A stretch of DNA of 50,201 nucleotides, from positions 1 through 50,201 of the forward strand of contig VBAQ01000001.1 of the NCBI GenBank assembly GCA_005883765.1, written 5' to 3'. Under the pieces are notes generated by a model that made no database searches, was not told where the DNA came from, and saw nothing but the letters and a program-made list of their open reading frames with translations. Origin of the DNA: Bacteroidota bacterium. Its GTDB lineage: Bacteria > Bacteroidota > Bacteroidia > Chitinophagales > Chitinophagaceae. Below are positions 702 to 45,715 of the stretch, piece by piece. Each line of letters begins with the position of its first letter. Within the stretch, counting starts at the first letter, position 1. A program made the position numbers and the translations under genes.

Positions 702-3338
702 ATGAAGATCATCGAGATTAAAGTTTTGAAGGGACCAAATTACTGGAGCATTCGAAGGCCGAAGCTGATACAGATGAAACTGGACCTGGAAGAAATGGAA
801 CAACGACCGACAAATAAGATTCCCGGTTTTCGCGAACGTTTGGAAAAATTAATTCCATCTCTATATGAGCATCGCTGCAGTGAGGACATGCCCGGAGGAT
901 TTTTTCATCGCGTGGATGAAGGAACGTGGATGGGCCATGTGATCGAGCATGTTGCCCTCGAAATACAAACGCTGGCAGGCATGGATACGGGCTTTGGGCG
1001 CACGCGCAACACAGGAGAGAAGGAGAGTGTATACTATGTGATCTTTGATTACATCGAGGAGGATGCGGGAGTGTATGCTGCCAGGGCGGCCGTGAGCATT
1101 GCCCAGGCCGCAGCCGATGATTTGCCGTACGATCTTGATGGAGACATACAGAAGATGCGGGAGATCCGTGAGGATACGCGGCTTGGACCATCGACGGGTT
1201 GTATTGTAGATGAAGCAGCAAAACGAGGAATTCCCTACATACGTTTGAACAGACAGAGCCTGGTGCAACTGGGCTATGGCGTTCATCAAAAAAGAATTCG
1301 GGCCACAATAGCCTCCACCACCTCAAATATTGCTGTGGATATTGCAGGCAATAAAGAAGAAACAAAAATGTTGCTGGACGCAGCCCAGATCCCTGTGCCG
1401 CGTGGAACCGTGATCAGGACAGAAGAGGCATTGAAGAATGCGATTGAAAGTTTCGGCTACCCGCTGGTGATAAAACCTATTGATGGCAATCACGGTAAAG
1501 GGAACACGACAAATATTACAACATACGAGCAGGCCAACAAGGCGTTTGAGGCGGCACAGGAATACAATCGTTCTGTGATCGTGGAAAAGTTTATCACAGG
1601 GTATGACTTCAGAGCCCTTGCGATCAATTACAAATTTATCTGTGCAGCGTTGCGAACGCCGGCATCGGTGATCGGAGATGGACAACATACTATTCAGTGG
1701 CTGATTGATGAAACCAATAAGGATCCGCGGCGCGGCTATGGTCACGAAAAAGTGCTGACCCAGATCACGGTTGATCAATTCACGCAAAAAATGCTCGATG
1801 ACCATGGGTACACGCTGCAAACAATTCCTGCAAAGGATGAGTTGGTGATTTTGAAACCGACGGCCAATCTTTCAACAGGAGGCACCTCCACTGATGTCAC
1901 CGACGAAGTACATCCGGCTAACATTTTTATGTTTGAACGAATTGCGAAGATCGTTGGCCTTGATATTTGTGGCATTGACGTAATGGCTACTGATCTGCGC
2001 TCGTCGTTGCTTGAGAACGGCGGAGCGATATTGGAAGTGAATGCAGCTCCCGGCTTTCGCATGCACCTTGAACCTGCGCAAGGACTGGCACGAAATGTAG
2101 CCGAGCCGGTTATTGAGATGTTATTCCCAAAAGGCAGTGCCGGCAGAATTCCGATCATTGCCATCACCGGCACAAACGGTAAAACAACTACGTCGCGGAT
2201 CACTGCACATATTGCTAAGAGCGCAGGGAAAAAAGTAGGCTACACAACAAGTGATGGCGTTTACATACAGAACCAGATGATGATGAAGGGCGATTGCACG
2301 GGCCCTGTATCGTCACAGTTTGTTTTAAAAGATCCAACCGTTGATTTTGCAGTGCTGGAATGTGCAAGAGGAGGTATCTTGAAATCGGGACTTGCTTTTC
2401 AGAATTGTGATGTTGCCATTGTCACAAACGTCGCGGCCGATCACATCGGCCTTGGCGGTATCAACAGCATTGAACAGATGGCAAAAGTGAAAGCAGTCGT
2501 ACCTGAGACAGTCTTTCCCCATGGCTATGCAGTTTTAAATGCTGACGATGATCTCGTTTACAAAATGGGAAAGGAGCTAAGTTGTAATGTAGCTCTTTTC
2601 AGCATGGATGAAGACAACCCGCGGATCAAAAGACATTGCGACAAAGGCGGATTAGCAGCAGTGTTTGAGAATGGATTTATCAGTATAAAAAAGGGTAATT
2701 GGAAGATCAGGGTGATGCCGGTGAAAGATATTCCAATAACCTTTGAAGGAAGGGCTTTACATAACATCGAAAATTGCTTGCCGGCCGTACTTGCTACGTA
2801 TCTGTTTCGCGATATTACCATAGAGGACATACGTTCGGCCCTGAGTTCTTTATTGCCCTCGTCATCGCAAACACCAGGCAGATTAAACTTTTTCCATTTC
2901 AAAAATTTCACCGTGCTTGCGGATTTTGCGCACAACCCTCATGGCCTCAAGTTACTTTGTGGGTTTGTAAAAAAATTGAATTATCCAACAAATGTTGGAA
3001 TCATTTCAGGTACAGGCGACCGGAGAGACGAGGACATACGTGAACTTGGAGAAATATCCGCCAAATGTTTTGATGAGATCATTATTCGGTGTGATAAAAA
3101 CTTACGCGGAAGAACTGCGGATGAGATCATTGATCTATTGAAGCAAGGAATTGAAAAGGTAAATTCAACCATACCTGTTATCGTCATTCCCGATGAGAAC
3201 GAAGCCCTTGAATATATTTATGCAAACCACAAACCGGGAGTGTTGTACACCATTATGTGTGATGTTGTGGCAGGCGCCCTGGATAAGTTGAGGGAATTGA
3301 AAGAAAGGGAGGTGAAAGAAGTGATGGTTAATAAATAA
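702..3338 (+). CDS. cphA: Cyanophycin synthetase
   Basis: Polymerises aspartate and arginine into the nitrogen-storage polymer cyanophycin (multi-L-arginyl-poly-L-aspartate), using ATP for each addition. The 878-residue length fits the CphA1 family. The N-terminal domain (about 1-160) leads into STGCIVDEAAKRGIP and QLGYGVHQKRI, both typical of the family. An ATP-grasp domain follows (about 215-475, with VIKPIDGNHGKGN and a late ILEVNAAPGFRMH). The C-terminal half is a Mur-ligase-like domain with an intact P-loop, GTNGKTTTS, at residues 490-498, then LECARGGILKSGL and NVAADHIGLGG. All three modules are present and no obvious key residue is missing. No cyanophycinase gene adjoins it here; the nearest related function is the isoaspartyl peptidase at 49770. 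Two closely spaced ATGs (698 and 702) exist; 702 is the in-frame one. Confidence 0.95.
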   Translation: MKIIEIKVLKGPNYWSIRRPKLIQMKLDLEEMEQRPTNKIPGFRERLEKLIPSLYEHRCSEDMPGGFFHRVDEGTWMGHVIEHVALEIQTLAGMDTGFGRTRNTGEKESVYYVIFDYIEEDAGVYAARAAVSIAQAAADDLPYDLDGDIQKMREIREDTRLGPSTGCIVDEAAKRGIPYIRLNRQSLVQLGYGVHQKRIRATIASTTSNIAVDIAGNKEETKMLLDAAQIPVPRGTVIRTEEALKNAIESFGYPLVIKPIDGNHGKGNTTNITTYEQANKAFEAAQEYNRSVIVEKFITGYDFRALAINYKFICAALRTPASVIGDGQHTIQWLIDETNKDPRRGYGHEKVLTQITVDQFTQKMLDDHGYTLQTIPAKDELVILKPTANLSTGGTSTDVTDEVHPANIFMFERIAKIVGLDICGIDVMATDLRSSLLENGGAILEVNAAPGFRMHLEPAQGLARNVAEPVIEMLFPKGSAGRIPIIAITGTNGKTTTSRITAHIAKSAGKKVGYTTSDGVYIQNQMMMKGDCTGPVSSQFVLKDPTVDFAVLECARGGILKSGLAFQNCDVAIVTNVAADHIGLGGINSIEQMAKVKAVVPETVFPHGYAVLNADDDLVYKMGKELSCNVALFSMDEDNPRIKRHCDKGGLAAVFENGFISIKKGNWKIRVMPVKDIPITFEGRALHNIENCLPAVLATYLFRDITIEDIRSALSSLLPSSSQTPGRLNFFHFKNFTVLADFAHNPHGLKLLCGFVKKLNYPTNVGIISGTGDRRDEDIRELGEISAKCFDEIIIRCDKNLRGRTADEIIDLLKQGIEKVNSTIPVIVIPDENEALEYIYANHKPGVLYTIMCDVVAGALDKLRELKEREVKEVMVNK

Positions 3339-3368
3339 ATAATAAAATCTGTATACTGTTCTTTAAAA

Positions 3369-3400
3369 TTTGGAGTGCAATTTTATCAATGCTATTTTTG
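3369..3400 (+). promoter_or_regulatory. Bacteroidota-type promoter for the tRNA-Gln genes
   Basis: TTTG at 3369-3372, a 20-base spacer, then TATTTTTG at 3393-3400, matching the Bacteroidota primary-sigma consensus (TTG, N19-21, TAnnTTTG). The expected start site is a few bases downstream, just ahead of the first tRNA at 3412. Confidence 0.7.
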
Positions 3401-3411
3401 CAATCCTTTTT

Positions 3412-3482
3412 TGACCCATGGTGTAATGGTAGCACTACAGATTTTGGTTCTGTCTGTTAAGGTTCGAATCCTTATGGGTCAA
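3412..3482 (+). tRNA. tRNA-Gln (anticodon TTG)
   Basis: A full cloverleaf can be drawn by eye. The acceptor stem TGACCCA (3412-3418) pairs with TGGGTCA (3475-3481). The anticodon stem ACAGA/TCTGT encloses loop TTTTGGT, giving anticodon TTG at 3444-3446, which reads CAA. The T arm is TAAGG-TTCGAAT-CCTTA. The discriminator base is A3482 and no CCA is encoded. Confidence 0.95.
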
Positions 3483-3484
3483 CT

Positions 3485-3574
3485 GAATATCGAGCAAGGA
3501 ACAAAGAATAATGAATGGAGAAGTAGACTGAAATACTTCAACGTTCGGTGTTCGTTGTTCCTTGTTCATTATTC
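3485..3574 (+). repeat. Heptanucleotide inverted-repeat array 1 (3' of tRNA-Gln TTG)
   Basis: Immediately after the tRNA, six consecutive 7-base units each starting with GA run from 3485 to 3526 (for example GAACAAA at 3499 and GAAGTAG at 3520). After a short ACTGAA spacer (3527-3532), six units ending in TTC follow from 3533 to 3574 (for example ATACTTC at 3533 and CTTGTTC at 3561). The second half is the reverse-complement type of the first, so the whole can fold as a long imperfect hairpin. GAAGTA (3520-3525) pairs with TACTTC (3534-3539), and AAGGAACAA (3496-3504) is exactly complementary to 3555-3563. No protein is coded here. Confidence 0.85.
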
Positions 3575-3579
3575 AAAAC

Positions 3580-3650
3580 TGCCCTGTAGTATAATGGTAG
3601 TACGTCAGATTCTGGCTCTGAATGTCAGGGTTCAAATCCTTGCAGGGCAA
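3580..3650 (+). tRNA. tRNA-Gln (anticodon CTG)
   Basis: The acceptor stem TGCCCTG (3580-3586) pairs with CAGGGCA (3643-3649). The anticodon stem TCAGA/TCTGA encloses loop TTCTGGC, giving anticodon CTG, which reads CAG. The T arm is CAGGG-TTCAAAT-CCTTG with one G-T pair. The discriminator is A3650 and no CCA is encoded. It is probably co-transcribed with the first tRNA-Gln, giving the cell both Gln isoacceptors from one locus. Confidence 0.95.
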
Positions 3651-3654
3651 CAAA

Positions 3655-3729
3655 GAATAGCGACCAGGGAGCAAGGAACAATGAAAGAGGAAGTAGACTG
3701 AATACTTCAACGTTTGCCGTTCCTTATTC
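3655..3729 (+). repeat. Heptanucleotide inverted-repeat array 2 (3' of tRNA-Gln CTG)
   Basis: The same design as the array after the first tRNA. Six 7-base units beginning GA occupy 3655-3696 (for example GAACAAT at 3676 and GAAGTAG at 3690), then ACTGA (3697-3701), then four units 3702-3729 such as ATACTTC and CTTATTC. The central part, 3690-3714, matches 3520-3545 of the first array with a single-base length difference, so the two are copies that have diverged in the outer units. Confidence 0.85.
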
Positions 3730-3780
3730 CATGAGACGCTGACGATGGATTGAAAATGCTGATCCCAACGCCCATTGACT

Positions 3781-4335
3781 TCAATACTCAAAAATACTTT
3801 TACAATCTGCAAGTAAAGGCAGTTGCTGATCTTTTTCAGACACAGTCATTCTTTCTGCCGGGATTTTCCAATCAATGTTCAAAGAAGGATCATTATACAG
3901 TATGCCCCTCTCACTTTCTTTTTTATAAAGAGCATCGCATTTATAAAACACTTCTGCTCTTTCACTCAATACAGAAAAGCCGTGTGCAAACCCCACTGGA
4001 ATGGATAATTGTTTTTTGTTTTCGGCCGAAAGTTCAATAGAAAAAATCTTTCCATAAGTGGGAGAATTTTTTCGAATATCGACCGCTATATCGAGTATCG
4101 ATCCTGCCAACACTCTCACAAGTTTCGCTTGCGCATGAGGATTTAATTGAAAATGCAGGCCCCGGATAACGCCGTAAGACGAACTCGACTGGTTGTCCTG
4201 CACAAATCGGAGGTCAATATCGTGCTGTTGAAAATCTTTTTCGTTGTACGATTCAAAAAAATAACCCCGGCTATCCTCATATACGATCGGCTCAAAAACA
4301 AATAGCCCGGGAAATTCTGTTTTATAGAATGGCAT
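3781..4335 (-). CDS. rfbC: dTDP-4-dehydrorhamnose 3,5-epimerase family protein
   Basis: A cupin-fold sugar epimerase of the RmlC/RfbC family (184 residues, normal length). It begins MPFYKTEFPGLFVFEPIVYEDSRGYFFESYN, and GVIRGLHFQ carries the catalytic histidine at about residue 60. A late YKCDALYKKESERGILYNDPSLNIDW matches the family's C-terminal active-site region. The family converts dTDP-4-keto-6-deoxyglucose to the L-rhamnose series, but RmlA, RmlB and RmlD are not in this window. It may therefore act with partners elsewhere or on another keto sugar. The start follows the upstream dehydrogenase stop by one base, so the two are translationally coupled. It is the last gene of the minus-strand nucleotide-sugar operon. 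Confidence 0.88.
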   Translation of the reverse strand: MPFYKTEFPGLFVFEPIVYEDSRGYFFESYNEKDFQQHDIDLRFVQDNQSSSSYGVIRGLHFQLNPHAQAKLVRVLAGSILDIAVDIRKNSPTYGKIFSIELSAENKKQLSIPVGFAHGFSVLSERAEVFYKCDALYKKESERGILYNDPSLNIDWKIPAERMTVSEKDQQLPLLADCKSIFEY

Positions 4336-37284: not shown

Positions 37285-40200
37285 ATGTCTTCAACAAAAT
37301 TGAATCACAGGATTGATTTTGGTAAAATCAAACATCTTGCTGATGCTCCTGACCTACTGGATATTCAAATTCAATCATTCAAAGATTTTTTCCAGTTAGA
37401 AACCACACCCGACAAACGAAATATTGAAGGCTTGTTTCGTGTATTTCGTGAAAACTTTCCCATCACCGACACACGTAACATTTTCGTGCTGGAGTTTTTA
37501 GATTATTTCATTGATCCGCCCCGCTACACCATTGAAGAATGCATGGAGCGTGGATTAACGTATGCAGTTCCTCTCAAGGCAAAGCTTCGTTTAAGTTGTA
37601 ATGATGAGGAACACGTGGACTTTCAAACAATCGTGCAGGATGTATTTCTTGGAAATATTCCTTACATGACGCCAAGAGGCACGTTTGTCATAAACGGTGC
37701 CGAGCGTGTAGTTGTTTCTCAATTGCACCGTTCGCCGGGCGTGTTCTTTGGTCAATCGATACATCCTAATGGAACAAAGATTTATTCAGCGAGAGTAATT
37801 CCTTTCAAAGGTGCATGGATGGAATTTGCCACTGACATCAACAATGTGATGTATGCCTACATCGATCGAAAGAAAAAATTTCCCGTAACGACTCTTCTTC
37901 GTGCAATTGGTTATGAAACTGACAAGGACATTCTCGAATTGTTTGGCATGGCTGATGAAGTGAAGGGAGATAAAAAGGCCTTACACAAATACATTGGTCG
38001 CCGGCTGGCCGCTCGCGTGTTGAGGAGCTGGGTGGAAGATTTCGTTGATGAAGACACCGGCGAGGTAGTATCCATTGAAAGAAATGAAGTCGTGCTTGAA
38101 CGCGACTCGATCCTCGACCAGGAAGCCGTCGATATGATCGTGGACATGGACGTAAAAAGCGTTTTCATACAGAAGGAGGATGTAGGTGGCGATTATGCTA
38201 TCATCTATAACACATTGAACAAAGACACTTCTAACAGTGAGTTGGAAGCTGTTCAACATATCTATCGCCAACTTCGTGGTGCCGATGCCCCGGATAATGA
38301 AACCGCAAGAGGTATTATTGATAAATTATTTTTCAGTGATAAGCGTTATGATCTCGGCGAAGTGGGCAGATACAAGATTAACAGAAAGCTTGGTCTCAAT
38401 TCTCCGCTTGAGCAAAAAACATTGACGAAAGAGGATATTATTGAGATCATCAAATACCTCGTTCGTTTGACAAACGGTAAAGCAGAGATCGATGATATCG
38501 ATCACTTGAGTAACCGTCGTGTGCGCACTGTGGGTGAGCAGCTGTACGCTCAATTCGGAGTAGGACTTGCACGTATGGCAAGAACGATCCGCGAGAGAAT
38601 GAATGTGCGTGACAATGAAGTCTTCACTCCGGTGGACCTCATCAATGCAAGAACTCTCTCTTCTGTGATCAATTCTTTCTTTGGAACATCTCAGTTGTCG
38701 CAGTTCCTTGATCAGACCAATCCGCTGTCTGAGATCACACACAAACGCCGTATCTCAGCGTTGGGTCCCGGCGGTCTGAGTCGTGAAAGAGCAGGCTTTG
38801 AAGTGCGGGACGTACACTATTCTCACTACGGTCGCTTGTGCACAATAGAAACTCCTGAAGGTCCAAACATTGGTTTGATCTCTACGCTTTGTGTGCATGC
38901 CAAGATAAACGAGATGGGTTTCATTGAAACTCCTTATCGTAAGGTTGAGAATGGCAAGGTGAATATGAAGCAGCTCACATTCTTAAGTGCGGAAGAAGAA
39001 GACACAGCTAAGATTGCGCAAGCGAATTCACCCCTTGATGATCTGGGCAACTTTGTTGAGGAAAAAGTAGTTAGTCGTGAAACCGGGGATTTCCCAATTC
39101 TTGACAAAACGGACGTGGAGTTTATGGACGTAGCGCCTAACCAGATCGTGGGTTTGAGTGCGTCGTTAATTCCTTTCCTTGAACATGATGATGCTAACCG
39201 TGCTCTCATGGGATCAAACATGCAACGCCAGGCTGTTCCATTGATCCGCCCGGATGTTCCAATTGTAGGAACCGGATTGGAAGGAAAGGCAGCCCGTGAT
39301 GCGAGAATTCAAATTCATGCAGAAGGAAATGGCGTGGCAGAATATGTTGATGCTAATGAAATTCATGTTCGTTATAACCGGAACGACACTCAAAAACTTG
39401 TGAGCTTCGAGGATGATCTGAAAGTTTACAGACTCACCAAGTTCATAAAAACGAACCAGGAGACAGCCATTAATTTAAAGCCAGCCGTTAAAAAAGGTCA
39501 ACAGGTAAAAGAAGGGGACTTTCTTACTGAAGGGTATGCTACCCAAAATGGTGAATTGGCCCTCGGAAAAAATTTGAAAGTGGCCTTTATGCCCTGGAAA
39601 GGTTACAATTTCGAAGATGCGATTGTGATCAGTGAAAAAGTGGTAAAAGAAGACCTGTTCACTTCTGTTCATATTTCCGAGTACGAACTTGAAGTGCGTG
39701 ATACAAAACTGGGTGAAGAAGAACTGACTCCTGATATTCCGAATGTTTCGGAAGAAGCCACAAAAGACCTTGATGAAAATGGTATTATCAGGATCGGCGC
39801 CCAAATAAAAGAAGGTGATATTATTATTGGTAAGATCACTCCAAAGGGTGAAAGCGATCCTACTCCCGAAGAAAAATTGTTGCGTGCCATTTTTGGAGAC
39901 AAGGCCGGAGACGCAAAAGATGCCTCATTGAAGGCGCCAAACGGAGTAGAAGGTGTGGTGATCGCAAAGAAATTATTCCAGAGAGCGAAGAAGGACAAGA
40001 ATGCCAAAGTAAGAGAGAAGGCAGCCCTGGAGAAATTGGAGAAATTACACGAGAAGAATGAGGCCGACCTGATGGAAGTGCTGCTTGAGAAACTACAAGT
40101 GTTGTTAAAGGAACACACGTCAGCGAGCGTGAGCAACAATTTTGGAGAAGTGCTGATCGGAAAGGGTGCAAAATTTACTGCAAAGAACCTTGCTGGTATT

Positions 40201-41088
40201 GACTACCAGAATGTAAATCCATTAGGATGGACAGGTGATAAAAAAATAGATGAGCAGATAAATGTGTTGTTACACAATTTTAATATCAAGTATAATGAGG
40301 AATTAGGCCGCTATAAGAGAGAAAAATTCAACATCTCAATAGGAGATGAGCTACCCGCGGGCGTGTTAAAGCTCGCAAAAGTTTACTTAGCGGTCAAGCG
40401 TAAGCTGAAAGTGGGAGATAAGATGGCAGGCCGTCACGGTAATAAAGGAATCGTTGCTAAGATCGTGCGTGAGGAAGATATGCCATTCCTGGAAGACGGA
40501 ACTCCTGTTGATATTGTTCTAAACCCACTCGGTGTGCCAAGCCGAATGAACCTCGGACAGATCTATGAAACGGTACTGGGTTGGACAGGACAAAAACTGG
40601 GGATGAAATTTTCAACGCCCATCTTTGACGGAGCGACAGTGGATGAAATTGCTGACTACTGTCAGCAGGCTGGCATTCCCCGGTACGGTCACACATATTT
40701 ATATGACGGTGAAACCGGCGAACGATTCCATCAAAAAGCTACGGTGGGTGTCATCTACATGATCAAACTTCACCACATGGTGGACGATAAGATGCACGCC
40801 CGCTCGATCGGACCTTACAGCTTGATTACTCAACAACCATTGGGTGGCAAGGCCCAGTTTGGTGGTCAGCGATTCGGTGAGATGGAAGTTTGGGCATTGG
40901 AGGCGTATGGTGCATCCAACATTCTGCAGGAATTACTTACCATCAAATCAGACGATATCATTGGTCGTGCAAAGACCTATGAGAGTATTGTGAAAGGTGA
41001 TAACGTTCCGCGGGCAGGCATTCCCGAATCATTCAATGTGTTGGTGCATGAATTGCGCGGGTTGGGTCTTGACCTGAAGTTTGAATAA
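37285..41088 (+). CDS. rpoB: DNA-directed RNA polymerase subunit beta
   Basis: A catalytic-core subunit of RNA polymerase, 1267 residues, complete. The rifampicin pocket reads [34 protein letters not shown] (about residues 465-500). It keeps the Asp, His, Arg and Ser that confer sensitivity in E. coli (positions 516, 526, 529, 531 there), so the protein looks rifampicin-sensitive. [16 protein letters not shown] and [19 protein letters not shown] match the active-site-proximal regions. [28 protein letters not shown] is the conserved C-terminal clamp. It has its own promoter and leader hairpin. rpoC follows after 162 bases containing a heptanucleotide array. Confidence 0.98.
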
Positions 41089-41128
41089 GGAGTGATGAAT
41101 AATGAGTAATGAGTAATGAGTACTCATC
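41087..41128 (+). repeat. Heptanucleotide repeat array between rpoB and rpoC
   Basis: Starting in the rpoB stop codon, five 7-base units run from 41087 to 41121: AAGGAGT, GATGAAT, then three exact AATGAGT copies (41101, 41108, 41115). The inverted unit ACTCATC (41122-41128) follows, giving a perfect 12-base palindrome at 41116-41127. The heptamer puts stop codons in all three plus-strand frames. Confidence 0.85.
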
Positions 41129-41250
41129 TCTGATAATTCCCCGCTGATGGCTGAAGAGCGAACCGAACGTACAAGAGTGCGACGCAACAAAGATGAACAC
41201 GTTGATGTCGCTTGTAACAAAAAAAAACTGAAAAAAGATAAAAAGAAATT

Positions 41251-45565: not shown

Positions 45566-45681
45566 GGCAATAAGCAATAGGCAACTAGCAAAGTATTATC
45601 ATCAGGAGTGAGAGAAATCTTACTCCTTTTTTATTGCCAGTTTGCCTATTGCCAATTGCCGATTGTGCATTGCCAGTTAGC
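45566..45681 (+). repeat. Heptanucleotide inverted arrays enclosing the rpoC terminator
   Basis: The left arm has four 7-base units from 45566 to 45593 (GGCAATA, AGCAATA and two more). The right arm has units of the NNTTGCC type from 45632 to about 45681 (TATTGCC at 45632 and 45647, AATTGCC at 45654, CATTGCC at 45668), with one extra base at 45639. The right arm is the complement type of the left. The left arm and 45633-45660 can pair over about 25 bases with few mismatches, looping out the terminator between them. Confidence 0.82.
45604..45632 (+). terminator. Intrinsic terminator of rpoC
   Basis: The stem AGGAGTGAGA (45604-45613) pairs with TCTTACTCCT (45618-45627), with one G-T pair, closed by a GAAA tetraloop; six T residues follow (45627-45632). 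It is 60 bases after the rpoC stop. Confidence 0.9.
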
Positions 45682-45715
45682 GCCTGTTAACTGTTTCATA
45701 AAGTAAGTCAATCAT

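Follow-up and report, generated by a model that had tools for sequence, protein, structure and literature searches.

Two tRNA-Gln genes of a Bacteroidota bacterium are each followed, within a few nucleotides, by a row of degenerate seven-nucleotide units that is then repeated in complementary form, which raises the question of what such arrays are and whether they act at the ends of the genes that they follow. The window is the whole stretch of DNA analyzed, 50,201 nt in length; it is contig 169 of a draft genome of 4.67 Mb in 403 contigs (G000), whose congener is referred to as G001. The 878-aa gene upstream of the tRNA-Gln pair, which we take to be cyanophycin-synthetase-like, has its nearest named relatives, at no more than 84% identity, in MAGs assigned to Chitinophagaceae, Segetibacter and Sphingobacteriales.

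The features of the locus are collected in Table 1. Both arrays are strictly 7-nt periodic, as an earlier note on this DNA had described them, by the sequence itself, by lag-7 identity against shuffles and by folding z-scores. They share the center GAAGTAGACTGAA(A)TACTTCAACGTT, also as described save for one extra A in array 1. Lag-7 identity in the four arms is 0.51, 0.65, 0.58, and 0.43 against shuffle means of 0.26–0.33 (p = 0.005, 0.0002, 0.0006, and 0.02, respectively), and over the 50 kb of the window 7 is the sole lag between 5 and 9 with strong segments (six of them, versus zero at lags 5, 6, 8, and 9). Array 1 (3485–3574) folds into hairpin 1 at -44.2 kcal/mol (z -10.4) and array 2 (3655–3729) into hairpin 2 at -25.8 kcal/mol (z -3.9), the ortholog of the latter in G001 being fuller (-36.9 kcal/mol). 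Over positions 3300–3900 only the two tRNAs reach the gathering score of an Rfam family, and both tRNA-Gln genes are uninterrupted (no group I intron).

Table 1. Coordinates of the two tRNA-Gln genes and of the heptad arrays behind them, with the units of each arm in 5' to 3' order.
Feature	Positions	Strand	Units and details	Basis
tRNA-Gln, anticodon TTG	3412..3483	+		ARAGORN; Rfam RF00005, 62.6 bits
Hairpin 1, 5' arm	3485..3526	+	Six units (five GAA, one GAG), 1 nt past the tRNA: GAATATC GAGCAAG GAACAAA GAATAAT GAATGGA GAAGTAG	Sequence, lag-7 identity, fold
Hairpin 1, spacer	3527..3533	+	ACTGAAA; the fold closes GAAGTA with TACTTC around the spacer	Sequence, fold
Hairpin 1, 3' arm	3534..3574	+	TACTTC and five NNNNTTC units: AACGTTC GGTGTTC GTTGTTC CTTGTTC ATTATTC	Sequence, lag-7 identity, fold
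tRNA-Gln, anticodon CTG	3580..3651	+		ARAGORN; Rfam RF00005, 66 bits
Hairpin 2, 5' arm	3655..3696	+	Six units (four GAA, one GAC, one GAG), 3 nt past the tRNA: GAATAGC GACCAGG GAGCAAG GAACAAT GAAAGAG GAAGTAG	Sequence, lag-7 identity, fold
Hairpin 2, spacer and shortened 3' arm	3697..3729	+	ACTGAA, then TACTTC AACGTTT GCCGTTC CTTATTC	Sequence; G001 ortholog with two more units

Other heptads occur in the window. A 7-nt array of related kind with other letters (41072..41142, + strand; GAATAAG GAGTGAT GAATAAT GAGTAAT GAGTAAT and further units) overlaps the end of a 1267-aa ORF (37285–41088) and has the maximum lag-7 score of the window (0.80). At 45631–45683, TTGCCAN heptads, with other letters and an equal period, lie just past a hairpin and T-run that stand behind a 1430-aa ORF.

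The earlier suggestion of a spreading repeat is borne out insofar as the repeat is dispersed, with further copies in the own genome and in related ones. A DNA search of G000 returns six more loci with matches over at least 76 of 96 bases, together with several one-armed arrays and weaker hits, and in 38 other genomes the array part of a query finds many matches in G001 and likewise in G013, G017, and G033. A detector that requires three or more GAA followed by three or more TTC in 7-nt phase, with no other letters fixed, identifies 43 hairpins that do not overlap one another. The sequence scanned was 473 kb, made up of the window, the named locus L067 and 60 stretches fetched from eight genomes; the fetched stretches were picked for hits and this density is no estimate for a genome. 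Ten two-armed copies lie in the fetched stretches of G000, while 26 of the 60 stretches contain no hairpin by this detector, including all eight of G033 and all eight of G143, genomes in which the arrays are more decayed or one-armed. In the 858 kb covered by 80 orthologous loci of named relatives the detector finds one hairpin (L067), and in Markov copies of those loci none.

The elements are 54–132 bp long (median 84), mostly with 4–6 units per arm, and the unit consensus is GAAYRWN on both arms. The units also follow one another in a palindromic order: TATC/TAAT outermost, CAAG in the next two places, and a mixture of TGAT, TATC, and TAAT after these. The letter pattern GAACAAGGAA..TTCCTTGTTC matches 8 of 395 genomes of the phylum, namely the own genome, another genome of its bacterial family and six that come from a single family of a different class; the repeat family spans the own genome, its congener, other genera of the bacterial family and these six genomes. 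Less specific arrays are common in the bacterial family: GAANNNN repeated five times occurs in 76 of its 147 genomes, period-8 arrays occur in 36 of the 147, and a backwards control pattern, itself a heptad, also matches often. On account of the last two, the 7-nt preference is strong in the window and not exclusive in the bacterial family. Period-8 arrays whose letters are peculiar to the genus abound in certain genera (genomes G149, G157, G085, G074, and G069), so the preferred period may differ between lineages. On contig 302 of G013 (L113/L230), the space between the two tRNA-Gln genes holds a damaged duplicate of the 3' part of tRNA-Gln(TTG). A short GC-rich insert splits this duplicate, and a hairpin of GAAATAA-type heptads, another letter set at the equivalent place, follows it immediately.

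Not all positions of a unit are free to vary. An alignment of the 5' arms of 11 copies, built from BLAST and by-eye finds, gives conservation values of 1.0, 0.96, and 0.90 for the GAA positions versus 0.77, 0.77, 0.58, and 0.64 for the other four. Comparison of the orthologous arrays of the congeners shows differences at 6 of 117 GAA positions (5%) and at 57 of 156 of the other positions (37%; p 1e-10), as counted with ungapped registration by hand (7/10 arms). Some copies were found via their GAA, which lowers the GAA divergence, by our reckoning, by at most about half, so that the constraint on GAA remains. The earlier note had proposed selection on both the unit pattern and its folding; the first part agrees with these counts, and the second, taken locus by locus, does not. 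Arm covariation was considered as proof of a selected hairpin and rejected, since native arms pair no better than swapped ones (unit-shift score, permutation p 0.52); they fold slightly worse than arm-swapped chimeras (-27.7 versus -29.8 kcal/mol, n 40, p 0.998), and RNAalifold on 11 copies reports two-sided change in 1 of 14 pairs. No locus therefore shows selection for its own hairpin. Shuffling the order of units in one arm yields -27.2 kcal/mol, order being nearly irrelevant, shuffling the four free letters inside units -19.0 kcal/mol, and shuffling the whole element -13.0 kcal/mol. As chimeras and unit-order shuffles fold alike and in-unit letter shuffles fold worse, self-complementarity is a property of the vocabulary and not of the locus: the pairing is written into the common unit vocabulary GAAYRWN.

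The copies are not distributed evenly with respect to genes. Among the 42 copies for which both neighbors are known, 16 lie in convergent gaps, 26 in tandem gaps and none in a divergent gap (one further copy stands at a contig end); of the 453 gaps in the 80 named loci, 137 are divergent, and these hold 34% of the gap bases. A gene 3' end is found within 15 nt of 27 of the 42 copies, a zone that holds 9.3% of gap bases, or 14% outside divergent gaps. Uniform placement of each element in its own gap is a fairer null because many elements fill their gap; under this null 18.5 copies are expected within 8 nt of a gene 3' end and 24 of 42 are observed (P 0.003), so that much of the closeness stems from elements filling short gaps. 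Of 11 copies picked by letters alone, nine are no more than 16 nt away from a 3' end, the six of another class all being among them, and one looks divergent by ORF calls; ORFs were called by a simple longest-ORF rule, and individual gene-element distances may be off. GAA-first order of the arms prevails over TTC-first by 43 to 1, a count biased in part by the GAA-first query that picked out most of the stretches, and by 9 to 0 in sets chosen otherwise (L211–L226, L181–L210, and L031–L110).

Arrays of a looser kind were sorted by position as well. One-armed runs in the fetched stretches (n = 37) comprise 15 within 40 nt of a 3' end (9 sense-GAA, 6 sense-TTC), 8 far from one, 5 in divergent gaps and 9 inside ORFs. 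Among 30 loci returned for GAANNNN repeated five times in the bacterial family, those within 40 nt of a 3' end are 13 sense-GAA and 3 sense-TTC, with 5 far, 2 divergent and 7 inside ORFs. Heptad arrays of any letters have no clear 3' preference (12 of 383 3' ends versus 11 of 503 5' ends); a general preference of all heptad arrays was thus rejected and the positional claim is limited to the GAA/TTC hairpins.

Most collected copies stand behind protein genes. The element also stands immediately 3' of four different tRNAs, namely Gln-TTG and Gln-CTG (each in both congeners), a tRNA-Ser of G001 and a tRNA-Leu of G105. In G000, 40 tRNAs were identified; among the 33 different 3' flanks inspected, those of the two tRNA-Gln genes are the only ones with the element. 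Specificity for tRNAs is rejected on this count, and a signal for processing tRNA 3' ends, one of the earlier note's suggestions, is too narrow a description. Stretches of 7-nt periodicity (lag-7 0.60–0.69) occur behind three more tRNAs of G000 (tRNA-Ala at L291, tRNA-Tyr at L283, and tRNA-Gly at L307), the last of them past an ordinary terminator.

At the tRNA-Gln locus itself, relatives show what usually occupies the place of the arrays. The congener keeps both arrays, whereas a heptad hairpin is found behind none of the 51 tRNA-Gln genes that more distant relatives have in 47 named orthologous loci. The earlier note held that its idea would fall if orthologous loci lacked such arrays and the genome had no other copies; with other copies in the genome and both arrays kept in the congener, it does not fall on this ground. 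A strict hairpin plus T-run is present behind 44 of the 51 genes of these relatives (3 of 510 shuffled flanks pass) and in no array-bearing flank of G000 or G001 (0/4, and 0/4 again by a middle rule). A lenient rule accepts 51/51 relatives and 3/4 array-bearing flanks but also 210/510 shuffled flanks; the 51/51 count was dropped for this reason and the strict count stands instead. For tRNA-Gln(TTG) and tRNA-Gln(CTG), the arrays appear from this comparison to be in place of the ordinary terminator. That they act as terminators is possible: they fit in position, but the arrays have no strict T-run. None of 33 element-bearing gene ends has a strict T-run on the element, and a strict terminator lies downstream of 1 of the 33 versus 22 of 227 control ends, numbers too small to support a general substitution of the element for terminators. 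Copies at other loci sit before or after an ordinary terminator.

Sixteen sites are comparable between G000 and G001. The element is two-armed in both congeners at five (Gln1, Gln2, C204, L229/L265, and L177/L266), is reduced to a single arm in one species at two (L145/L261 and L179/L268) and is missing from one of the two species at nine. Of these nine sites, five can be aligned on both flanks (L144, L151, L154, L178, and L180) and four on one flank only (L141, L156, L143:2510, and L143:5726). L178/L267 is a clean empty site, in which no target duplication was noticed; the copy precedes an ordinary terminator, which the empty ortholog retains. At L151/L262, G000 has a hairpin with a short T-run (by eye) where G001 has the array, and at L180 and L143:2510 the array is placed past a terminator.

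Several known systems resemble the element in part. In cyanobacteria, the tRNA-Leu intron contains within its group I structure a heptanucleotide-repeat hairpin, P6b, and STRR are elements of intergenic 7-nt repeat units. P6b shares with our element degenerate heptads on both hairpin arms and a tRNA context; it has other letters, whereas the GAA/TTC element lies behind a tRNA and many other genes and in no group I intron. Intrinsic terminators are similar in that they are hairpins directly behind tRNA and mRNA, for which the element stands in at tRNA-Gln and L151/L262; the element differs in its long, imperfect, A/T-rich stem of heptads and it is not an intrinsic terminator by T-run. The TAACTGA heptamer repeats reported in five Bacteroidetes are likewise intergenic and of 7-nt units, but they repeat a single fixed word in direct orientation, and in the best-studied genome most of them immediately precede start codons (PMC4679880, in the part of the text available); they are not inverted arms of a degenerate word behind genes. 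Heptamers as such had thus been reported from this phylum; of the two-armed GAA/TTC element, no description was recognized in the literature searched.

REPs (repetitive extragenic palindromes, with super-families tagged GTAG or CGTC) are another close comparison. According to the accessible portion of PMC3733652, they lie mostly between convergent or co-directional genes, many of them less than 20 bp from a 3' end, and those of the CGTC class occur in Bacteroidetes too and are likewise without a link to a RAYT tyrosine transposase. The heptad element is similar as a dispersed intergenic palindrome on the 3' side of genes and outside divergent gaps; unlike REPs (20–40 bp), it is built of degenerate heptads and is longer. 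The tags GTAG and CGTC are absent within 12 nt of element ends (0/43 each; the reverse forms CTAC and GACG occur 2 and 3 times). Y1_Tnp matches occur in 7 of 8 genomes at 20 loci, and none of the 17 scanned carries a heptad hairpin, in contrast to GTAG-class REPs, where the RAYT is flanked by copies. By tags and transposase link, the heptad element is not a member of the REP families. As to another REP trait, numerous near-alike copies in a genome, the ten two-armed copies from the stretches of G000 that were covered share at most 83% identity between different loci. A RAYT-like 204-aa gene with a weak Y1_Tnp match and without heptad hairpins is present in both congeners (L248 on C144 of G000 and L236 on C315 of G001), in a seemingly equivalent neighborhood.

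The reading that we favor, at a probability of about 45%, is that the arrays are REP-like 3'-end stem-loops of degenerate heptads which probably act on RNA 3' ends. We infer the function: a role at RNA 3' ends appears the most likely because tRNA and mRNA ends share the element, because it replaces terminators (tRNA-Gln and L151) and because its units are constrained. The two arrays would be copies of a dispersed REP-like intergenic stem-loop family, and copies behind genes would be transcribed as 3' UTR or tRNA trailer and fold into long imperfect hairpins. Such hairpins may set or protect the RNA 3' end by blocking 3' exonucleases and, where no T-run terminator remains, could be the place where transcription stops. 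A given unit of the vocabulary can be expected to pair with the complements of most of the others, as GAA/TTC is fixed and Y, R, and W are partly tolerant via G-U; the hairpin would for this reason survive the drift of single units and, between convergent genes, read alike from both strands. A further-reaching version, speculative and in our view unlikely, sees in the arrays a new class of gene-end element, with GAAYRWN as a degenerate seven-letter code that would mark where tRNA and protein genes end in two or more classes of Bacteroidota. Since any arm would pair with any other, the units would act as an interchangeable zipper, which would form 3' ends in either direction with no need of a T-run and might even link 3' UTRs of different transcripts in trans.

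The strongest rival, given nine presence/absence differences in 16 sites, is a mobile or neutral repeat, which we consider somewhat unlikely: a non-autonomous, perhaps formerly mobile, palindromic repeat of REP/MITE type without host function, whose insertions into promoters and coding regions were purged so that gene-end copies persist. It would account for the dispersed copies, the clean empty site at L178/L267 and the equal letters in two classes of the phylum, and REPs are similarly placed near 3' ends (PMC3733652, as far as the available text goes). Recent spread is not seen, as copies at different loci within G000 or within G001 share at most 83% identity over at least 60 nt (a neighboring pair reaches 94%); nor was a duplicated target noticed at the empty site. 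The constraint on GAA at common sites would be unexpected for dead copies. Mobilization by RAYT was rejected on the 17 of 20 Y1_Tnp loci that were scanned, and an origin in plasmids or phages because array 1 finds no match in either.

A degenerate satellite, in which replication slippage favors 7 nt, decay follows and hairpins are a by-product, seems distinctly unlikely. The many different heptamer arrays of the bacterial family and the existence of one-armed arrays are what it predicts, heptamers have been called the most abundant intergenic tandem repeats of many prokaryotes (PMC6344855, from the section available) and slippage has already been proposed as a cause (a proposal cited in PMC4679880, in the portion consulted). 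Slippage leaves unexplained the GAA-first two-armed order, the palindromic order of units, the vocabulary common to two classes and the constraint on GAA next to free neighbors. For the REP/BIME elements of E. coli a link to gyrase has been proposed, and by analogy the heptads might be binding sites of a nucleoid or topology protein at gene ends, with which constraint on units without arm covariation and a placement in convergent and tandem gaps but not in divergent ones would agree; this is very unlikely, the candidate protein being only hypothetical, the letters varying between genera and the vocabulary encoding pairing.

The preferred reading, a stem-loop acting on RNA 3' ends, bears on a wider question, as intergenic heptamer tandem repeats have given no clear clue to function (PMC6344855, within the text at hand). 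In the GAA/TTC hairpins, heptamers have an order (inverted, GAA first), a location (the 3' ends of genes) and a constraint that can be measured; this opens the question to experiment and makes the repeat family worth testing as an RNA-end marker. Loci with an array in one congener and an ordinary terminator or nothing in the other offer a natural experiment for the study of RNA 3' ends. If the elements form 3' ends, terminator annotation in Bacteroidota misses a class.

A second dispersed repeat was encountered in G000: the segment L143:2605–2672 matches on about a dozen of its contigs and adjoins a stretch identical to a tRNA-Pro of the same genome (L143:2708–2782).
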